From positions 1-15,572 of the forward strand of contig WALA01000053.1 of assembly GCA_015523085.1 (NCBI GenBank): a stretch of 15,572 nucleotides of DNA, read 5' to 3'. Positions 1-13,037 of this stretch are shown here, one piece after another (the first letter of the stretch is position 1; each line of letters begins with the position of its first letter). The DNA is from Candidatus Aenigmatarchaeota archaeon (GTDB lineage Archaea > Aenigmatarchaeota > Aenigmatarchaeia > GW2011-AR5 > WALA01). The notes below the pieces were generated by a model. The model made no database searches and had not been told where the DNA came from. It saw only the letters and a program-made list of their open reading frames with translations. A program made the position numbers and the translations under genes.

Positions 1-614
1 CTTCTTTCGCGCTTTTCGCGTACGCTTGGGTCGGATACTGGTACCTTTATTGGATAATGATAGGGTACATGATTCTTCTGCTCGGGTTCGAGTACGCAAA
101 GAGCAAAGTGAAGAAGCACGCGTTCTCGTACACGCACGCAAAGCGCATCGGAATTTCGTGGCTCATAATCACGCTCACAATATTCCTCATAGGATTCCCA
201 CACTTCGGGACGAGGATAATTTCGTCGACGATCATGTCCCCGTTCAGGACGATAAGCATATTCTCGTCGTCCGGCGGCATAAAGGGCGAGGAAGGCCAGT
301 TTCCGAACGTTTACGTCAGCGTCGCCGAGATGATGTCCCCCGGCGGCGTGGGAAAAATAATAAGGATGGATCCGACGATGTTCTTCCTGACGTTCCTTGC
401 GATAATTTATCTCTTCGTTGCGTACGTCAAGTACGGACGCCACATTGACACACTTTCCATACTCATTTCATGGCTCGCGGTGACTATGTACGCGTCAATA
501 ACCGCAGTAAGATTTACAATACTTCTCGCGATGCCCATAACCCTGGGGTCGGGAATAATACTGTCTAAAATATTCAGACTTTTGCTGGGTGAGGATAAAC
601 ATGCTTTCGAATGA
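1..614 (+). CDS. aglB: Oligosaccharyltransferase STT3/AglB, N-terminal membrane half (5' end outside window)
   Basis: The frame is open from base 3 to the TGA at 612-614, so the true start lies before the window. The product is strongly hydrophobic, with several membrane helices. It carries an SVAE motif (bases 318-329) in a loop between helices, matching the SVxE motif of external loop 5 in archaeal and eukaryotic STT3, whose Glu helps bind the acceptor sequon. A later helix contains A-V-R-F (Arg codon 510-512), like the conserved Arg in a late STT3 helix. By family knowledge this is the membrane domain that moves a lipid-linked glycan onto Asn of N-x-S/T on the outer face of the membrane. 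The frame stops before the last helices and the WWDYG-bearing soluble domain, which are encoded in the next, overlapping frame. It could be a natural split gene or a frameshifted single gene. Confidence 0.85.
   Translation, partial: SFALFAYAWVGYWYLYWIMIGYMILLLGFEYAKSKVKKHAFSYTHAKRIGISWLIITLTIFLIGFPHFGTRIISSTIMSPFRTISIFSSSGGIKGEEGQFPNVYVSVAEMMSPGGVGKIIRMDPTMFFLTFLAIIYLFVAYVKYGRHIDTLSILISWLAVTMYASITAVRFTILLAMPITLGSGIILSKIFRLLLGEDKHAFE
588..592 (+). promoter_or_regulatory. Shine-Dalgarno site for the C-terminal STT3 frame
   Basis: GGTGA lies 8 bases before ATG 601 and is complementary to the archaeal 16S rRNA 3' end (core GGAGGTGAT). It decides the start at 601 over the GTG at 589, which would sit inside the SD itself. 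A well-placed SD here supports separate initiation of the second half. Confidence 0.6.
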
Positions 615-1665
615 AAACAAATTTTACGCGTCCTTCGGCGTGTCGTTTTTGATAGGGCTTTACCTCATTTACAGGTATCTAAACTTCATAACATCGAGAG
701 TGAAGTACTCGCTGTACGTCATTTACGGCCTTTACCTGATTGCGTCTCTTTACTTCTACTTCAAATTCTCATCACCGACGAAGATAGCAGTCGCCGAAGT
801 GACGCTGTCGCTCGTTTTCATAGTGGTGTTCTCGGAGTTTATGGTGAGCTACGCAACATCCATAAGCCAGCCGCCCGTTCTCGACAACAACTGGTGGAAC
901 GCGCTGAACTGGATACGCAACAACACGCCGAATTGTTCTGTGATCGCGACGTACTGGGACCCGGGGCACTTCATAACGGGAATTGCGCAGCGCCCCGTCG
1001 TCTTTGATGGTGCGAGCCAAAACGCAAAGCTCATTGAGAACGTCAGCGGGCGGACGATCGTCAGAAGCCGCATACAGGACATAGCCACCGTGCTTTACAC
1101 GGACAACGAGACCAAGGCGCTGAAAATTCTGAAATACTACGAGATGCCTAACTGCTCGTCCATGTACTTCATAGCGTCGTCCGACCTCATAGGAAAGTCG
1201 CACTGGTGGGTTTACTTCTCAACTTGGACGCCGAAGACGCACAGCGGCGACAAGAACCCGATGGACAACTACTACTACGTCCCGTTGACTTCGAAGCGCC
1301 CGCTCATGAGCGGCAATGGAACGGAGTACATATTCGGAAACGTTTTCATGGTAATAGAGAACAACGGGACAGCCGTGCCGTATCTCATCCAGGGCAACGG
1401 GCAGTATGTAATGAAGATGTCAAAAATATTCTACTTTGAGAACGGCATTCCGAGGATGCTTGGATTCAACAACGCGTCTTTTGATGGGATGCTTTACGTG
1501 ACGCCGGGAATGAATTACGCGTTTTACATACCGAAGAATCTTGAGAATTCCCTGTTCACGAGAATGTACTTCTTCAACGGGCTCGGACTCAAGCACTTCA
1601 AGCTCGTGAAGAACTTCGGCGGCGAGGTCAAGCTCTTCAAGGTAGAGTTTAATGAAACAGAGTGA
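601..1665 (+). CDS. aglB: Oligosaccharyltransferase STT3/AglB, C-terminal half with WWDYG-like motif
   Basis: The product is 354 residues. Three hydrophobic segments (about 10-30, 38-58, 66-86) precede a soluble, presumably external domain. The stretch WNALNWIRNNTP followed by YWDPGH (Y118-W119-D120-P121-G122) and then RPVVFDGASQN aligns with the conserved STT3 region W.AL.WL..NTP..WWDYG..I...R....D. The WWDYG motif binds the +2 Ser/Thr of the acceptor sequon in known STT3 proteins; here it is changed at two positions. The N-terminal half ends at 614, so the frames overlap by 14 bases. The next gene also starts 14 bases before this stop. An SD at 588-592 supports initiation at ATG 601; GTG 589 is the alternative. 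Several N-x-S/T sites occur in the C-terminal domain. Identity as the STT3 C-terminal part is strong; whether it is a separate polypeptide is uncertain. Confidence 0.82.
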   Translation: MLSNENKFYASFGVSFLIGLYLIYRYLNFITSRVKYSLYVIYGLYLIASLYFYFKFSSPTKIAVAEVTLSLVFIVVFSEFMVSYATSISQPPVLDNNWWNALNWIRNNTPNCSVIATYWDPGHFITGIAQRPVVFDGASQNAKLIENVSGRTIVRSRIQDIATVLYTDNETKALKILKYYEMPNCSSMYFIASSDLIGKSHWWVYFSTWTPKTHSGDKNPMDNYYYVPLTSKRPLMSGNGTEYIFGNVFMVIENNGTAVPYLIQGNGQYVMKMSKIFYFENGIPRMLGFNNASFDGMLYVTPGMNYAFYIPKNLENSLFTRMYFFNGLGLKHFKLVKNFGGEVKLFKVEFNETE

Positions 1666-2332
1666 GTACAACAGGAAGATTTATGGAAACTTTCACGTCC
1701 CATTCAAAGAGCCGCGCGTGTTCAAGTCATTTAACATTCTTAAATCGCTTCCGCCGGGGCGAATACTTGATGTTGGCTGCTCCGATGGCGGATTCATAAG
1801 GGAGCTCGCGAAACTCGGTTGGGACGTCTTCGGGGTTGACATATCGCGCGCAATACCGCGCGACCTCAAAGTCGTCGTGAACAATCTCGACAACGGGCTT
1901 CCGTTCAAGGACGGATCGTTTGATTACGTTTACACGAGCGAAGTCATAGAACACGTTCTTGACACGTCCTTGTTCCTCCGTGAGATAAACCGCGTTATGA
2001 AGCAGGGCGGCGTGCTCGTTCTCACAACTCCGAACATGGCGTCGCTCACGCGGAGGGTCGCGCTCTTTTTCGGAGCTCAGCCGCCTCTCCTCGGGTACGA
2101 CTACGAGCACAATGACGCGGGACACGTTAGATACTACACTGGCCATGTCTTGTACGAGCAGATTCGCGAACACGGATTCAAAATACTCAAATCGTACGGC
2201 GACTACATACACCTCCCCCGCGTTGGATACGGAGTCAAGAAAGTTCTCTCCTACCCGGCGTCCCTGCCCGTGCTGAAAAATTTCGCAAACTCGTTCATAG
2301 TCGTCGCGAAAAAAGTCAAAGACGTTCAATAG
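1652..2332 (+). CDS. Class I SAM-dependent methyltransferase (Methyltransf_11 type)
   Basis: The 226-residue protein has motif I LDVGCSDGGF (39-48), an acidic residue ending strand 2 (GVD, D63), and the LPFKDGSFDYVY...EVIEHVLD segment (83-104) typical of UbiE/COQ5-like methyltransferases, followed by the GGVLVLTTPN strand (119-128). It should use S-adenosylmethionine in the cytoplasm; the substrate cannot be read from the sequence. The start at ATG 1652 lies inside the end of the STT3 C-terminal frame (14-base overlap), with AGGT 8 bases upstream, so translation is probably coupled to the oligosaccharyltransferase. This placement suggests methylation of a glycan or lipid-linked intermediate, which is inference. 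No membrane helix is evident. Confidence 0.85.
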   Translation: MKQSEYNRKIYGNFHVPFKEPRVFKSFNILKSLPPGRILDVGCSDGGFIRELAKLGWDVFGVDISRAIPRDLKVVVNNLDNGLPFKDGSFDYVYTSEVIEHVLDTSLFLREINRVMKQGGVLVLTTPNMASLTRRVALFFGAQPPLLGYDYEHNDAGHVRYYTGHVLYEQIREHGFKILKSYGDYIHLPRVGYGVKKVLSYPASLPVLKNFANSFIVVAKKVKDVQ

Positions 2333-2341
2333 TCGGACGTT

Positions 2342-2369
2342 TCTGAAATGAAAAATCGTTTTCATCAGA
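2342..2369. repeat. Inverted repeat between methyltransferase and glycosyltransferase genes
   Basis: ATGAAAA (2348-2354) and TTTTCAT (2359-2365) are perfectly complementary around a 4-base loop. The flanks TCTG (2342-2345) and CAGA (2366-2369) extend the pairing after a 2-base bulge. It starts 10 bases after the methyltransferase stop and ends just before the TATA box of the next gene. It could be a 3' hairpin of the upstream operon or a regulator site at the promoter; the sequence does not decide. Confidence 0.45.
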
Positions 2370-2378
2370 TTTATATTT
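2370..2378 (+). promoter_or_regulatory. TATA box of the GT4 glycosyltransferase gene
   Basis: TTTATATTT is centred about 24 bases upstream of ATG 2398, and no SD is visible before that ATG. This arrangement is expected for a leaderless archaeal transcript. Confidence 0.6.
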
Positions 2379-2397
2379 TTCTCGTTCAATTATCCTT

Positions 2398-3426
2398 ATG
2401 AAAATCGCGCTCATGACGGATTTGTTTTATCCCTACCTTCTCGGTGGAGGAGAACGCCAATTTTACGAGATTGCGAAGCGTCTCGCGCGCCGCCACGACG
2501 TCCACGTGTTCACACTGCGGACTCTTCCAACGGAGCTCCCTGGCGTCCACGTGCATCGCTTCGGGGCCGTGCATCCGATGAACGGTCGTTCATTCTTCAA
2601 GCTCCTGAGCGTTCCGATGATGTTTCCGAAAGTGCGCGGCTTCGACGTTGTCCACGTCAACCAGGGAATAAGCGCCCTCTACGGAATGTACGAGAAGCTG
2701 TTCCGGGGGAACGGAAAGATAGTCGCGACGTTCCACGACCTGTACATAAACGATTGGGGAAAGTACTACGCGTTCCCATCGTCGCTTTTCGGGCGCGTTC
2801 TTGAATTTCTCTGGATGCGAACGCCTTACGACGATGTCATAGTTCCAAGCGCGTCCACACAGCGGAAACTCAAATTCTTCGGCGTGAGCTCGACAATAGT
2901 TCCAAACGGCATAGACTTCGAGAAGTACAAAATCAAGCGGAAGGAGAAAACAATACTTTACATCGGACGCCTCGTGAAGTACAAGCACGTTGACGACTTG
3001 ATACGCGCAGTGCGCGGCCTCGATTACAAGCTCAAGATAATCGGCCAGGGTGAGGAGATGGAGAATTTGACAAAACTTGCAAAGCGCCTTGGTGTTGACG
3101 CCGAGTTCCTCGGCTTCGTCCCCGAGGAGAGGAAGATAGATGAGCTCGCCCGCGCGGACATTTTCGTGAACCCATCAACGGTCGAAGGCTTCGGCATAGT
3201 CATTTTGGAAGCGCTTGCATCCGGGTGCAAAGTTGTTGCGCGCCCGCTTCCGGCGTACGACTTCTGCGAAGGGAACGCGATTTTCGACGACGACATTCGC
3301 CGTGGAATTGAACGCGCGATGTCGTGGAAAGTCAGCCGAGCTCGCTTGCGCGGCGCGGCGCGGCCGTTCTCGTGGGACAACGTAGTCAAGCAAATAGAGC
3401 GCGTTTACATGCGCGACAAAAAGTAG
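2398..3426 (+). CDS. GT4-family glycosyltransferase (GT-B fold)
   Basis: The 342-residue length is normal for the family. The N-terminal domain starts with a beta strand leading to YPYLLGGGER (11-20), the glycine-rich acceptor-side loop of GT4 enzymes. PNGID (169-173) marks the domain junction, YIGRLVKYKHVDDLI (188-202) begins the nucleotide-sugar domain, and EGFGIVILEA (263-272) holds the EX7E motif (E263, E271) that contacts the donor sugar. It should be a retaining transferase acting at the cytoplasmic face, probably adding a hexose to a lipid-linked glycan given the neighbouring STT3 and flippase genes. Donor and acceptor are unknown. It appears to have its own leaderless promoter. Its 3' end overlaps the convergent gene by 22 bases. 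Confidence 0.9.
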   Translation: MKIALMTDLFYPYLLGGGERQFYEIAKRLARRHDVHVFTLRTLPTELPGVHVHRFGAVHPMNGRSFFKLLSVPMMFPKVRGFDVVHVNQGISALYGMYEKLFRGNGKIVATFHDLYINDWGKYYAFPSSLFGRVLEFLWMRTPYDDVIVPSASTQRKLKFFGVSSTIVPNGIDFEKYKIKRKEKTILYIGRLVKYKHVDDLIRAVRGLDYKLKIIGQGEEMENLTKLAKRLGVDAEFLGFVPEERKIDELARADIFVNPSTVEGFGIVILEALASGCKVVARPLPAYDFCEGNAIFDDDIRRGIERAMSWKVSRARLRGAARPFSWDNVVKQIERVYMRDKK

Positions 3427-4298
3427 AATGTTATTCCGAGAAGCCCGACGAACCAGAGCGTCACGATTCTGTACGTTAGTATTACCGTCATAACGACCTT
3501 GAGATTCGCAAACGAGAACATCGCAAACAGGACGCCGTCTATCGAACCTATGCCCGCCGGGAGGAAAAGAACCGCAGAGCCGATTATCATAGATGCGCAG
3601 AACGCCGAAACCGCGTATATCCACGAAACGTTTATGGAGAATGCCTTGAGTATGAGGAAGAAAGTAGTTCCGTCGACGAACGACATGAGTATGGCGATTG
3701 ACATTATGCCGAGGAACTTCCTTCTGCTTATCTGGCCGGACTTGAAGAACGCATCAACATTCTTTCTTTTTATGAACCTGCTCATGAAGTTTGCTATTTT
3801 TATGCGCCCTCTCTTCGAGTATATGAGATCAACCGCGTAAATTATGAGGATTGCGAACACTATGGACGCTATGAAGAAGAACGTCTTGAACTTCCTCGGA
3901 ATGAAAAACACGGCCCAGAGGGAGACGATTATGTACGCTATGAAATTCGTCATCTCCTCCCACATTATGCGCGCGATGCCGCGCGACATGGGGATTCCGA
4001 ACTTTCTCTTTATCAGGTACGCCTTGAAAGCGTCGCCACTCTTGAACGGGCTGAATCCGTTCGCCGTAAGACCGACCATCTCGACCTTGAACAAATCGTA
4101 GAGGTTCACCTTTCCAAGGAGCGTCCTCAGCCGCCACGTTCTTATGAGAAGGGCAACGATTTCTGACACGATGGCGAGAACGAGAAAGAGCTTGTTTGAG
4201 CTCTCAAAGATTTCAACGAGTGTAGCCGGCTTTATTATGTAAATCATGATGGCGAAAAAAGCCAAAAGGGCAAAAATGGAAAAGTATTCCTTTTTCAT
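3405..4298 (-). CDS. Lysylphosphatidylglycerol synthase transmembrane / UPF0104-like integral membrane protein
   Basis: The 297-residue protein is mostly hydrophobic, with about 7-8 predicted helices. Diagnostic features are RTWRLRTLLG (53-62), the NGFSPFKSGDAFKAYL segment (80-95, matching the family's N..P.R.GE..R pattern) and LPAGIGSIDGVL near the C-terminus (the family's PGGIG..EG pattern). These place it in PF03706, the membrane part of bacterial MprF and of archaeal AglD-type proteins, here without a fused glycosyltransferase domain. Such proteins are thought to act in lipid or lipid-linked sugar translocation or modification; the exact role is unknown. It is transcribed divergently from the flippase gene and converges with the GT4 gene, overlapping it by 22 bases. 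A leaderless start at ATG 4298 fits the TATA box 24 bases away. Confidence 0.8.
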   Translation of the reverse strand: MKKEYFSIFALLAFFAIMIYIIKPATLVEIFESSNKLFLVLAIVSEIVALLIRTWRLRTLLGKVNLYDLFKVEMVGLTANGFSPFKSGDAFKAYLIKRKFGIPMSRGIARIMWEEMTNFIAYIIVSLWAVFFIPRKFKTFFFIASIVFAILIIYAVDLIYSKRGRIKIANFMSRFIKRKNVDAFFKSGQISRRKFLGIMSIAILMSFVDGTTFFLILKAFSINVSWIYAVSAFCASMIIGSAVLFLPAGIGSIDGVLFAMFSFANLKVVMTVILTYRIVTLWFVGLLGITFYFLSRM

Positions 4299-4315
4299 GA
4301 CACTAATTTCCGCTC

Positions 4316-4328
4316 AAATATTTAAAAT
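4316..4328. promoter_or_regulatory. Shared TATA region for two divergent membrane-protein genes
   Basis: AAATATTTAAAAT is centred at about 4322, some 24 bases from ATG 4298 (minus strand) and 26 bases from ATG 4348 (plus strand). The core AAATATTT is self-complementary, so it can be read as a TATA box in both directions. Only 49 bases separate the two starts, and neither has an SD. Confidence 0.55.
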
Positions 4329-4347
4329 CTTATTCAGATGTTTAATC

Positions 4348-5835
4348 ATGAATTACAAGTCGAAGATGGTCCGCGGTTCGATTGTACTCTTCCTTATGAC
4401 ACTCGTGGCGTCCATTTTCGGTTACGCAATACGAATGATACTCACGCGGACGATACCGAAAGTTGAATACGGTTACGTGTATTCCGTCATATCCTTGATG
4501 GGGCTCGTTGGCATTTTCTTTGACCTTGGTTTAATATATGCGGTCATACGCTTTTCGGCGTTTTACAAGGCGAGGAAAAATTACTCGAAGATAAAGGAAA
4601 TTTTTCTCATATCGCTCATATCGAAGGTCGTGCTCTCCATAATTTTCCTCGGTCCTATAATTTTGTTTTCGAAGGAAATCGCTTCCGGATTCTTTCACTA
4701 TCCATCTCCGCAGGTCATAGTCATTCTATCGATTGTGTTCTTCTTCTCAACGTTCTACTACGTGTTCCGCGGGCTTGCCCAAGGCCTTGAGCACATTTAC
4801 GCCTATTCCATTGGTGAAGCGCTGCTCACGGGCATTGTTTTGATTCTCGTCATCGTTTTCAAGAAGAGCGCCGTGTCCGTTGCATACGCGTACTTGGTGA
4901 GCACGGTTCTTTCGTCGCTGTTCTACATCGTCTACGACTACGCCACGGAGAAGCGCGTTTTTGATTCGCCGTCGTCAATACACTTTGAGACCATAAAAAA
5001 GGTTTTCGCCTTCTCCCTGCCCGTGTTCTTCAGCAGCATTGGGTACACGATAATGACGCGGACGGACACGTTCATGCTAACTTACTTCAAAGGATTGGAG
5101 CAGGTTGCCTACTACCAAGTCGCCGTGCCGACGTCCCAGTACCTGTGGAAATTCGCCGCATCCGTTGCTCCCATAATCTCGCCCATCGTGACGGGAATGT
5201 TTTCAAGGCGCGACAAGAAATCGTGGAGCGACTCGTTCTCATTTTCCGTGCTCATAACGATGCTCCCCGTCGTTCCCGCGATGTTCACGATGCTCCTCTA
5301 TCCGAAAATCATAATACGCATACTTTTTGGCAACGCCTACGTCGCTGGAGCTCAGGCGCTCCAAATACTATCTCTCGTCGCCGTGTTCTACTCGTACATC
5401 GTCATAATATCGACGTTCATAGGCGCAAGTGGCGACACGAAAAAGCTTTCCAATGCGGTTCTCGTAGCCGCCGGCGCAAACGTTGTGCTCAACGCGATTC
5501 TCATACCGCCTTACGGTATCGTCGGCGCGTCACTTGCGACGCTGCTCTCGTACGTTGTGGAATTCGTAATTCTTTCGTTTTACGCACGTGAGCTCGCCCT
5601 TCCGATGAGCTTCGACACGCTCGGAAAATTCGCGGTCGCAGGCGCTGCTTTTTCAGCGTCGGTTTACGTTCTGAAGCGCGTGCTCTCAATGAACGTTTAC
5701 GCAGAAATGGTCGTCGTGATTTCGATATCGCTCGTCGTTTACGCGCTCGCATGTTACGCGCTCGGCTTGATAAGTAAAGAGCGCATTCTCAGAATAAGAA
5801 AAATTTTATCGAAGCCGCGCGGAAAGAATTTGTGA
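4348..5835 (+). CDS. Polysaccharide flippase, Wzx/MATE-like (MOP superfamily)
   Basis: The 495-residue product is hydrophobic throughout, with some 12-14 membrane segments, the usual size for Wzx-type transporters. The opening pattern (M-V-R-G-S, then LFLMTLVASIFGYAIR, R-T-I-P-K-V-E-Y-G-Y) and the GIFFDLGL segment are typical of PF01943/PF13440 proteins; the later LFGNAYVAGAQALQIL and GIVGASLATLLSY segments match the second half of the family. The likely role is moving a lipid-linked glycan across the membrane for use by STT3. The reading frame extends upstream to 4246, but that would overlap the divergent gene. ATG 4348 is preferred because the TATA box sits 26 bases upstream and the transmembrane domain begins soon after. 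Only 6 bases separate its stop from the end of the convergent phosphoesterase gene. Confidence 0.85.
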   Translation: MNYKSKMVRGSIVLFLMTLVASIFGYAIRMILTRTIPKVEYGYVYSVISLMGLVGIFFDLGLIYAVIRFSAFYKARKNYSKIKEIFLISLISKVVLSIIFLGPIILFSKEIASGFFHYPSPQVIVILSIVFFFSTFYYVFRGLAQGLEHIYAYSIGEALLTGIVLILVIVFKKSAVSVAYAYLVSTVLSSLFYIVYDYATEKRVFDSPSSIHFETIKKVFAFSLPVFFSSIGYTIMTRTDTFMLTYFKGLEQVAYYQVAVPTSQYLWKFAASVAPIISPIVTGMFSRRDKKSWSDSFSFSVLITMLPVVPAMFTMLLYPKIIIRILFGNAYVAGAQALQILSLVAVFYSYIVIISTFIGASGDTKKLSNAVLVAAGANVVLNAILIPPYGIVGASLATLLSYVVEFVILSFYARELALPMSFDTLGKFAVAGAAFSASVYVLKRVLSMNVYAEMVVVISISLVVYALACYALGLISKERILRIRKILSKPRGKNL

Positions 5836-5841
5836 TTGCAA

Positions 5842-6495
5842 TCAAGGTTTCATCTCATCTACCGTTCCCAGATACGTTCCGTCCAGGAGATAGACCTTTT
5901 TGTTTTTCATGCGGCGCGCTATGGGCCCCATAAGACCGCTTTCAAGGACATTCTTCCCACCGATTATGGGATTGAACGCGGGCATTACGATGGTCTTTCG
6001 CTTTTCATACTCGCCTATGACCCAAACCTTCTTGTACACACGGCCCGCTATGTCATTCAGCGCTATCATCGGGTGATTGTGCCCGATGACGATTGTCTTT
6101 ATCTTGTTCGTGAGCTTTGGCTTCATGTGGCCGTGACATATGTAAACGCTTCCCACAGTCAAGTCGTTTACGACGCCGTCGAAGACGCGGCGTATTCCCC
6201 CGTCGTGATTCCCCATTATGATTTTGACTTCGGCGTTCACTCCGTCGACGAACTTTTTCAGGTCCTTGATTTCCTGAAATTTCATGGACGGTATATTGTG
6301 CTTGAAGTCGCCGTTTATCACGAGCGTCCTTGTCCGCGTCCTTTTCAGGAGCGCGTTTGACCGCTCAATGAGCTCATCGACCTGATTCGGTATGAAGAAC
6401 CCGCGCCTCCAGTACTCGTACTCGACTCCTATGTGAAGATCTGAGATGATAAGGAACTTTTCAACCTTCAGCGCGGGCTCGTTTGTTATGAACAT
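5842..6495 (-). CDS. SbcD/Mre11-related metallophosphoesterase (archaeal)
   Basis: The 217-residue protein shows the full calcineurin-like metal-binding set: SDLHIG (D19, H21), NGDFKH (D63), GNHD (95-98), CHGHM (H121) and GHNHP (H139, H141). The FIPNQVDEL and PAFNP segments agree with the archaeal group described as SbcD-related putative phosphoesterases (TIGR00024). It should hydrolyse a phosphoester with two metal ions in the cytoplasm; the natural substrate is not known. The nuclease accessory regions of Mre11 are absent, so a recombination-nuclease role is not implied. The start at ATG 6495 fits a leaderless transcript from the divergent promoter shared with the small membrane protein gene. 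The gene converges with the flippase gene. Confidence 0.85.
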   Translation of the reverse strand: MFITNEPALKVEKFLIISDLHIGVEYEYWRRGFFIPNQVDELIERSNALLKRTRTRTLVINGDFKHNIPSMKFQEIKDLKKFVDGVNAEVKIIMGNHDGGIRRVFDGVVNDLTVGSVYICHGHMKPKLTNKIKTIVIGHNHPMIALNDIAGRVYKKVWVIGEYEKRKTIVMPAFNPIIGGKNVLESGLMGPIARRMKNKKVYLLDGTYLGTVDEMKP

Positions 6496-7531: not shown

Positions 7532-7936
7532 TCACTCGCACGTTGCCGTGTCCGTTCCACCTGGGGCGTTCACATCGACTTCGTCACCGGACGGGCAAGT
7601 CGTAGAGCACGTGGTTACGTCTCCCGGGCTGATCGTGTTTTTGTCCCACGAGCAACTCACGGTCGCACCATTCACAAACACGGCGAGCTTATTCGTGTCG
7701 ATTGAGTACGTTCCGCTGTTCCTAATCGTAATCGAACCGGTTGAATTAGATGCCTTTATAATCGTGACCTTCTGACCCATGGCCTTCTGCTGCTCGTTCA
7801 AAGAGCTCGACGTTGAGTTCGCGGCGCTGCTGAAAACCCGTTTCATCCAAACGTACGTAAAGCCGACCATGGCTATGGTTATCATCATAAGAAGGATTAT
7901 CGCTATCACAGGTGTTATTCCCTTTGACCCTTTCAT
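7532..7936 (-). CDS. Archaeal type IV pilin-like protein (class III signal peptide)
   Basis: The 134-residue protein begins MKGSKG then ITPVIAIILLMMITIA, the classic archaeal pilin/archaellin N-terminus (PF07790-like). A prepilin peptidase should cut after G6, leaving the hydrophobic helix (about 7-30) for filament assembly. The body is Ser/Thr-rich with N-S-T sequons at N40 and N64 and four cysteines (C95, C110, C114, C133), possibly two disulfides. It would be inserted in the membrane and then built into a surface filament or pseudopilus. No assembly ATPase or platform gene is in the window. The start at ATG 7936 has GAGGTGA 5 bases upstream. The HTH gene lies 47 bases upstream on the same strand and the exported-protein gene lies downstream. 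Compared with longer archaellins it is short, as expected for a minor pilin or adhesion pilin. Confidence 0.88.
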   Translation of the reverse strand: MKGSKGITPVIAIILLMMITIAMVGFTYVWMKRVFSSAANSTSSSLNEQQKAMGQKVTIIKASNSTGSITIRNSGTYSIDTNKLAVFVNGATVSCSWDKNTISPGDVTTCSTTCPSGDEVDVNAPGGTDTATCE

Positions 7937-12268: not shown

Positions 12269-12292
12269 TCGGAATCAAAATCTTGTTGGAAT

Positions 12293-12376
12293 GCTGGGGT
12301 CGCCTAGCCTGGTAGGGCGCTGGCCTGCTAAGTCAGTGGGCGAAAGCCCGCGTGGGTTCAAATCCCACCCCCAGCG
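12293..12376 (+). tRNA. tRNA-Ser (anticodon GCU)
   Basis: All arms can be folded by eye. The acceptor stem is GCTGGGG/CCCCAGC with discriminator G. The D arm contains GCC...GGC with the GG of the D loop. The anticodon stem CTGGC/GTCAG holds loop CTGCTAA, giving anticodon GCT. The long class II variable arm is GGGC-GAAA-GCCC. The T arm is GTGGG-TTCAAAT-CCCAC. The long variable arm with discriminator G is a serine-tRNA feature. It reads AGC/AGU serine codons. CCA is not encoded (the next bases are TCA), and no intron is visible. No T-run terminator follows directly. Confidence 0.97.
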
Positions 12377-12466
12377 TCAGAACCTATGGCTCAGTCACCT
12401 AAAATCTGATTATTTGTGTATGATTTTCATGATATCATTTATGATGATGTTTCGCCGTTCATGAAA

Positions 12467-12515: not shown

Positions 12516-13037
12516 ATGGGGCTTAGACCAGGAAAATGCTACAGAAAGCCGCACAGGCCTTGGACGAGGCAGTCGCGAAGAAAGCCTAGAAAAGGCTATG
12601 TAAAAGGTGTTCCTGGGTCGAAAATCCACCAATTCAACGTTGGTGACATCTCGAAGGATTACAACGCAAAATTATACTTGATTTCTGAACAAAACATCCA
12701 AATACGCCACAACTCGTTGGAGGCGGCGCGTATTGCGGCTGTCCATTACCTGGACCAGAAGCTCGGGCAGGGAAACTACTTCCTTCGCGTCCGACCGTAT
12801 CCGCACCAGGTCCTCCGCGAAAACCCACTCGCCACGGGCGCAGGGGCGGACAGGTTCCAGCAGGGAATGCGGGCGTCGTTTGGCCGACCCATTGGAACGG
12901 CGGCCATCGTCAAGGAAGGTCAGATAGTCATGGAAATTTGGCTGAAGCAGGAACAAGTCAAGGACGGAAAAGAGGCCCTTCGCCGCGCAAAGCACAAGCT
13001 TCCTCTGAAGTACAGAACGAAATTCGAGGCGGCGTAA
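12516..13037 (+). CDS. rpl10e: 50S ribosomal protein L10e (uL16 family)
   Basis: The 173-residue product is full length for archaeal L10e. The N-terminus GLRPGKCYRKPHRPWTRQSR (2-21), then KGVPGSKIHQFNVG, is characteristic of the archaeal/eukaryotic uL16 family. The central YFLRVRPYPHQVLRENP segment and the ADRFQQGMRASFGRPIGTAA segment, which lies near the ribosomal functional centre in known structures, are intact. It assembles into the large subunit and helps position tRNA at the A and P sites. It has its own promoter and SD and is apparently transcribed alone, next to tRNA-Ser. Its stop lies 8 bases from the end of the convergent peptidase gene. GC content returns to the level of the left part of the window in the second half of this gene. 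Confidence 0.98.
   Translation: MGLRPGKCYRKPHRPWTRQSRRKPRKGYVKGVPGSKIHQFNVGDISKDYNAKLYLISEQNIQIRHNSLEAARIAAVHYLDQKLGQGNYFLRVRPYPHQVLRENPLATGAGADRFQQGMRASFGRPIGTAAIVKEGQIVMEIWLKQEQVKDGKEALRRAKHKLPLKYRTKFEAA

Follow-up and report, generated by a model that had tools for sequence, protein, structure and literature searches.

Positions 1–1665 of the analysed DNA very probably encode the two subunits of a naturally split STT3/AglB oligosaccharyltransferase, as judged from homology, motifs and gene arrangement. The window, meaning the whole stretch analysed, is a complete contig of 15,572 bases, and its parent draft genome (G000) comprises 431,682 bases in 65 contigs at 80.8% completeness. Two genes, here called A and B, are conserved across an order. 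The substitutions in both genes are mainly synonymous, the catalytic residues are divided between them, and normally one set is present per genome.

Genes A and B and their junction in the window

The features of the window that bear on the split are as follows.

1–614, + strand: 3' part of gene A, the STT3 transmembrane half with the EL5 SVAE loop and the conserved Arg helix (ORF list, TIGR04154, motifs)
318–329, + strand: SVAE, EL5 loop, in frame A
504–515, + strand: AVRF, Arg helix, in frame A
588–592, + strand: GGTGA, Shine-Dalgarno-like site for gene B, eight bases 5' of ATG 601 (sequence; Shine-Dalgarno enrichment at B starts)
601–614, + strand: overlap of the A stop and the B start, ATG...TGA, 14 nt (sequence)
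601–1665, + strand: gene B, starting at ATG 601, 354 aa, with the last transmembrane helices and the C-terminal domain (ORF list, TIGR04154, profile alignment, motifs)
952–966, + strand: YWDPG at the WWDYG position, in frame B
1183–1197, + strand: DLIGK, the D...K pair, in frame B
1652–2332, + strand: SAM-dependent methyltransferase gene, the start of which overlaps the B stop by 14 nt at 1652–1665 (ORF list, Pfam)

Frame A runs from 3 to 614 (203 codons, stop codon at 612–614) and has no start, being open at the contig edge. The contig starts within gene A, only 600 bases upstream of the A–B junction, and the 5' part of the gene is missing from the window. Frame B is open from 559, with an earlier GTG candidate start at 589; the two open frames overlap at 559–614, and B is +1 of A. 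The GGTGA site sits within the codons of the A tail GEDKHAFE (588–611).

Both frames were compared to the archaeal STT3 model TIGR04154. Frame A gave a weak match to model positions 269–437 (E 0.0017) and frame B matched positions 462–606 (E 4.5e-8), so that the matched segments follow each other in order without overlapping. An earlier note on this DNA had described an STT3 split over two overlapping frames, with SVAE and the Arg helix in the first and a WWDYG-like domain in the second. The frames at 3–614 and 601–1665, the ordered model matches and the location of the motifs bear this out. The correctly spaced GGTGA before ATG 601 and the identical 14-base overlaps at both junctions, which it also reported, were found in the sequence. 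Taken alone, neither of the window's frames passed a Pfam cut-off.

Shine-Dalgarno matches of at least five bases were present at 10 of 29 B starts versus 32 of 1069 internal ATGs. For matches of at least four bases the counts were 25 of 29 versus 200 of 1069. In both counts the first ATG was taken as the B start, and related loci are included, which makes the counts non-independent.

The independent same-genus MAG G001 has the same junction and the same 14-nt overlap. Its DNA is 94.5% identical to the window over 207–700, and across 207–2400 (about 2.2 kb) the two sequences show 75 differences and 0 indels. At 207–600, 20 of 25 differences fall on third positions of frame A; at 615–1651, 33 of 38 fall on third positions of frame B; inside the overlap 601–614 there are none. 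The changed codons are 18 synonymous and 4 non-synonymous in A, and 35 synonymous and 3 non-synonymous in B. The end of G001 contig C64 encodes 212 residues from the N-terminal part of A, among them NIDSY (EL1) and GGDPDSD (EL2). The final 64 bases of this contig correspond to window 1–64 at 97%, and contig C16 resumes at window 207, the link between the two contigs being read through the window and not from G001 by itself. Four more B proteins, 60–83% identical, have 354–355 aa and similar N-termini. A sequencing error is excluded because an independent genome has the same junction, with a codon-position signature that switches frame there. These results confirm that the A–B split is real, as the earlier note had proposed.

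Several other genes were noted in the window. A GT4 glycosyltransferase, an LPG_synthase_TM protein and a polysaccharide-flippase-like protein lie beside the split STT3 at 2398–5832, and together with it they probably form a surface-glycan gene cluster. An ORF on the minus strand at 7532–7936 has, by eye, a pilin-like N-terminus (KGITPVIAIILLMMITIAMVGFTYVWM). The plus-strand ORF at 12516–13037, judged by its sequence, presumably encodes ribosomal protein L10e, and a tRNA-Ser lies near it at 12292–12378.

Distribution and history of the split

All genomes compared were drafts, and nearly all were titled MAG. The genome search returned B matches in 53 of 59 genomes. Among 40 loci from 40 genomes, A adjoins B in 28, and one gene lies between them in two (G003, G019). 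B lies away from A, with another gene upstream, in two (G042, G048) and is cut by a contig edge in one (G025). The seven others are single-chain (G014, G034, G035, G041, G044, G050, G055).

Comparison of related genomes at the junction, the check that had been proposed, showed the split in 27 of the 31 genomes of the window genome's order; in the 30 split rows of the main clade (see below), A ends at a near-constant distance past RF. This count takes in the window, and G025 and G027 were read from named loci L101 and L102. One genome of the order is fused (G014), and another, which is 70% complete, gave a weak B match and no A match (G026). Neither half was found in G010 and G023.

The 32 named loci (28 from Candidatus Aenigmatarchaeota and four labelled archaeon) include 29 split, one single (L089) and two with B only (L094, L103). 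In the 29 split loci, the distance from the A stop to the first B ATG ranges from −271 to +648 nt in all three frame relations; the −271 nt case (L099) may reflect a wrongly chosen start. The open frames A and B have no overlap at all in L076, L078, L083 and L092. B comes directly after the A stop, in frame, in G008, G024 and G025 (L090, L080, L101). In G003 and G019 the interposed gene encodes a methyltransferase (by Pfam for the G019 copy).

Family f11 (11 genomes) shows mixed arrangements. A adjoins B in G054, G149, G150, G153 and G154, the two are fused in G035, and they lie on different contigs in G042, G048, G151 and G152. G155 has a B fragment and no A match in a genome that is 65% complete. 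Different contigs alone do not prove a distance between A and B. B is preceded by a gene other than A in G042 and G048, and downstream of A in G042 and G151 there is no B, an ATPase-like ORF (by eye) following instead. In G151, the contig ends place A and B at least about 21 kb apart.

Partial copies were also seen in this family. At L116 of G151 (2009–6057), two ATPase-like ORFs (by eye) come after A, and between these ORFs lies a partial copy of the 3' end of A (4442–4648), an arrangement that suggests insertion with duplication. Stray fragments occur in G152, one of the A 3' end (C24) and one of B (C13:8260–8604). In L109, L110, L113 and L114 (G149, G150, G153, G154), query residues 330–408 were matched twice in gene A, which seems to be an internal duplication of the last helices.

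PF02516 (STT3) was over its cut-off exactly once per genome in 27 of the 31 genomes of the order, the fused G014 among them; the A–B pair is thus normally the sole STT3 found. The complete A homologues L090 and L081 reached 86 bits against a cut-off of 24.5. A second PF02516 match in G008 is below the cut-off, and the window genome lacks a match, its A being truncated at the contig edge. Weaker matches to A1, query B or PF02516 in G006, G008, G021, G025, G027 and G028 were considered as alternative B subunits and rejected, since the ORFs of at least 250 aa there, identified by eye, have no WD-x-G motif.

The protein search gave 255 B-like and 228 A-like clusters. The A-like clusters have 386–519 aa among the best 120 of the 228, in a search where lengths above about 700 aa could not appear. 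Among 12 relatives of the fused G014 in the protein search, P0124 (691 aa; 37% identical to G014 over 94%) and P0133 (739 aa) are long enough for a fusion. Pfam gave nothing for the B-like P0112 up to E 0.01. P0080 is labelled Thermoplasmata and P0112 Woesearchaeota.

The tree contained 55 rows, 35 split and 20 single. It took part of the single-chain genomes from the phylum search, G039 forms a long branch, and seven rows with one half incomplete were left out (G001, G025, G027, G042, G048, G149, G155). The split/single label changes at least four times on it. The main clade (100/99) unites the order with f11 and holds 30 split rows and two single ones (G014, G035); the five rows of family f9 lie elsewhere. 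G014 is placed within the order at 100/99 and with G005, G004 and G009 at 98/95, and G035 falls within f11 at a weak 65/65. A grouping of the 30 main-clade split rows without G014 and G035, both tested together, was rejected (p-AU 7.9e-8), and one origin for all splits including f9 was weakly rejected (p-AU 0.019).

An old split, with a probable second one in family f9, agrees best with the tree. Re-fusion is clear in G014 and less firmly indicated in G035; the motif tyrosine that both share with the split proteins fits re-fusion. The earlier note had held that close relatives with one continuous frame would speak against a split. Such relatives do exist in G014 and G035, but they are nested in the split clade, share the motif tyrosine and fit re-fusion better than error.

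Division of the catalytic residues and alternative readings

The published AglB residues are D47, R154, D161, H163 and E360, together with the WWD motif, the DK motif and an arginine that meets the pyrophosphate of the lipid-linked oligosaccharide (LLO), as given in parts of PMC7226087 and PMC3703281. The A profile aligned to A. fulgidus AglB (3WAJ) at 3–272 and 378–448 (E 9.6e-25). This alignment covers the EL1 and EL2 ligands and the RF arginine, with EL5 outside it, and the acidic ligands of EL1 and EL2 were aligned to AglB and human STT3A. For the B profile, the aligned part of STT3/AglB chains was the region of the last TM helix and WWD, with E 5e-7 for the best chain and 2e-4 for 3WAJ. 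By position and family knowledge, we take SVAE to be the position of AglB E360 and the R of RF to be the LLO arginine.

All 55 tree rows share the EL5 Glu, the TM Arg, D-x-x-x-K and, within the WWD-type motif, the second W, the D and the G. The EL1 D is present in 25 of 30 main-clade split rows (four gaps, one K) and the EL2 D-x-D in 29 of 30 (one gap); both are present in 5/5 f9 rows and unreadable in the window. Of the 35 split rows, 34 have residues at the two EL2 positions, and these are D at both in every one. Among the 18 single-chain rows outside the main clade, the EL1 column is D in 15 (three gaps) and the EL2 columns are D in 14 and 15.

The first W of the WWD motif is replaced by Y in 30/30 main-clade split rows and in both re-fused rows (G014, G035), versus W kept in the other 23 rows (five f9 rows and 18 single chains). 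At the Y of WWDYG, 49 of 55 rows have P. With YWDPG in place of WWDYG, recognition of the acceptor Ser/Thr may differ. The spacing of D-x-x-x-K is one off the DXXKXXX(M/I) motif, for which part of PMC3703281 describes insertion variants.

The chain lengths on either side of the cut were as follows. Of the 30 main-clade rows, 28 have 29–34 residues between the R of RF and the A end, and the other two (G015, G022) have 41; all five f9 rows have 46. The A C-terminus reads GED(K/A/S) plus 4–5 residues in 12 of 30 main-clade A proteins, the window's included. From the B start to WD there are 60–71 residues in the shortest B proteins, 118 in the window and up to 216 in others. Single-chain relatives have a stretch of variable length at this position. 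Homology places the cut in the predicted loop between the Arg helix and the last TM helix, which would be cytosolic as in AglB/STT3. Hydropathy helix counts were uneven, with 7–11 in A (five in the window's partial A) and 1–6 in B before WD; homology is therefore the basis for the helix numbers and for placing the cut on the cytosolic side.

PF02516 is over its cut-off in most of the order, and the A–B pair occupies two genes, not the one polypeptide of the STT3/AglB/PglB family. Therefore, in our usage, the pair is treated as a putative split homologue of this family and not as a standard single-chain member. Since the metal ligands, the EL5 Glu and the Arg lie in A, and WWD and D...K lie in B, we infer, with its geometry by homology, a composite active site of the kind that the earlier note had proposed, to which both chains would contribute.

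In the proposed enzyme, subunit A, of about 400 aa when complete, would span the membrane several times and carry the metal-binding acids, the glutamate of EL5 and the arginine that is taken to touch the lipid-linked oligosaccharide. In the window, A is missing its first half and by itself matches weakly. Subunit B (354 aa) would contribute at least one transmembrane helix followed by an extracellular domain for recognition of Ser/Thr at sequon position +2. The two would be translated separately, and in the window the Shine-Dalgarno site and the overlap would couple B translation to that of A. Both would insert in the membrane and associate via the helices that are neighbours in single-chain AglB, with the metal, EL5 and LLO sites of A facing the Ser/Thr pocket of B. 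Assembled in this way, A and B would work like single-chain AglB. A further reading is a doubtful one: the pair would be an ancient, lineage-wide two-subunit core in which the acceptor-reading half B, carrying Tyr for the first Trp of the motif, could be regulated, diversified or relocated separately from the donor half A, with an altered sequon preference.

Other explanations of the junction were weighed against a genuine split. The probability of a sequencing or assembly indel in an intact single-chain gene is practically nil. The window does come from a draft MAG whose contig begins shortly before the junction, but G001 shares the junction with zero indels and third-position changes that switch frame there, the further B proteins of 354–355 aa begin similarly, and the distance from RF to the A end is nearly constant in the 30 main-clade rows. 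Programmed +1 frameshifting or stop read-through near the A stop, which would join the frames into one chain, is very improbable. The frame overlap and the +1 relation in the window would suit frameshifting, and the three genomes with B in frame directly after the A stop would suit read-through. Against these stand the wide range of A-stop-to-B-ATG distances in three frame relations, the four loci without open-frame overlap, the gene between the halves in two genomes, the separate contigs in four, and the Shine-Dalgarno enrichment at B starts. A frameshift gene would have overlapping open frames in all members, and these are absent from part of the loci. The gaps, in-frame stops, interposed gene and separate contigs thus exclude frameshifting as the mechanism of the lineage, and the earlier note's reading of a genuine split, with a +1 frameshift (programmed or erroneous) as its alternative, is supported.

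A decaying pseudogene, or halves with other jobs (B as a peptide-binding protein, A as another glycosyltransferase), is improbable, though less so than frameshifting. Genome reduction is frequent in such archaea and the first Trp of the motif is replaced by Tyr, but the changed codons are mostly synonymous in both genes (18/4 in A, 35/3 in B), the catalytic residues are invariant in both halves, and A and B each normally occur once per genome; the pseudogene is rejected. Other small archaea are known to have split genes whose products inteins join, which would fit halves joined after translation by protein trans-splicing. This is scarcely credible here: with A ending 29–46 residues past the RF arginine and the shortest B proteins starting 60–71 residues before WD, intein halves would not fit at the junction. 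A genuine two-gene split is the reading retained below.

Comparison with known systems

No report of a split STT3 was found in a search of open-access papers. The main text of an archaeal fusion/fission survey (PMC11237513) contains neither STT3 nor oligosaccharyl. Gene splits of glycan enzymes and in small archaea are already known.

The split in 27 of 31 genomes of the order, with a probable second origin and re-fusion, marks where the enzyme tolerates a break. A natural split would also be a ready-made two-part oligosaccharyltransferase with which donor and acceptor functions could be separated, and it explains why these genomes contain short STT3-like proteins. That the C-terminal half receives no name follows from Pfam: B of the window stays below every cut-off, and P0112 has no match up to E 0.01.

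Alg13/Alg14 and EpsE/EpsF, halves of MurG-like enzymes, are not oligosaccharyltransferases and are not known to be homologous to them. Like A–B, these glycosyltransferases are split into membrane and catalytic halves and are fused in some lineages, according to parts of PMC4973528 and PMC8993221. Nanoarchaeum equitans and Nst1 are likewise small archaea with split protein genes; in the portion of PMC3655853 that we cite, STT3 is named once, as a divergent homologue and not as split.

Single-chain STT3 proteins of other families of the Aenigmatarchaeota class (G044, G050, G034) have the same order of elements as A–B, on one continuous chain of 627–861 aa instead of two genes. The 18 single-chain rows outside the main clade keep the E, R, second W, D, G and D...K, and 17 of the 18 have WWDPG. 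The catalytic subunit of N-glycosylation is described in parts of PMC7226087 and PMC3703281 as one chain in all three domains of life. AglB, STT3 and PglB, each one catalytic chain of 13 TM helices plus a C-terminal domain, share with A+B the order of elements and, by the same parts of these sources, the metal-ligand acids, the EL5 Glu, the TM Arg, a WWD-type motif and a comparable, differently spaced D...K pair. A–B differs from them in being two genes cut between the Arg helix and the last TM helix, and in having YWDPG versus WWDYG.
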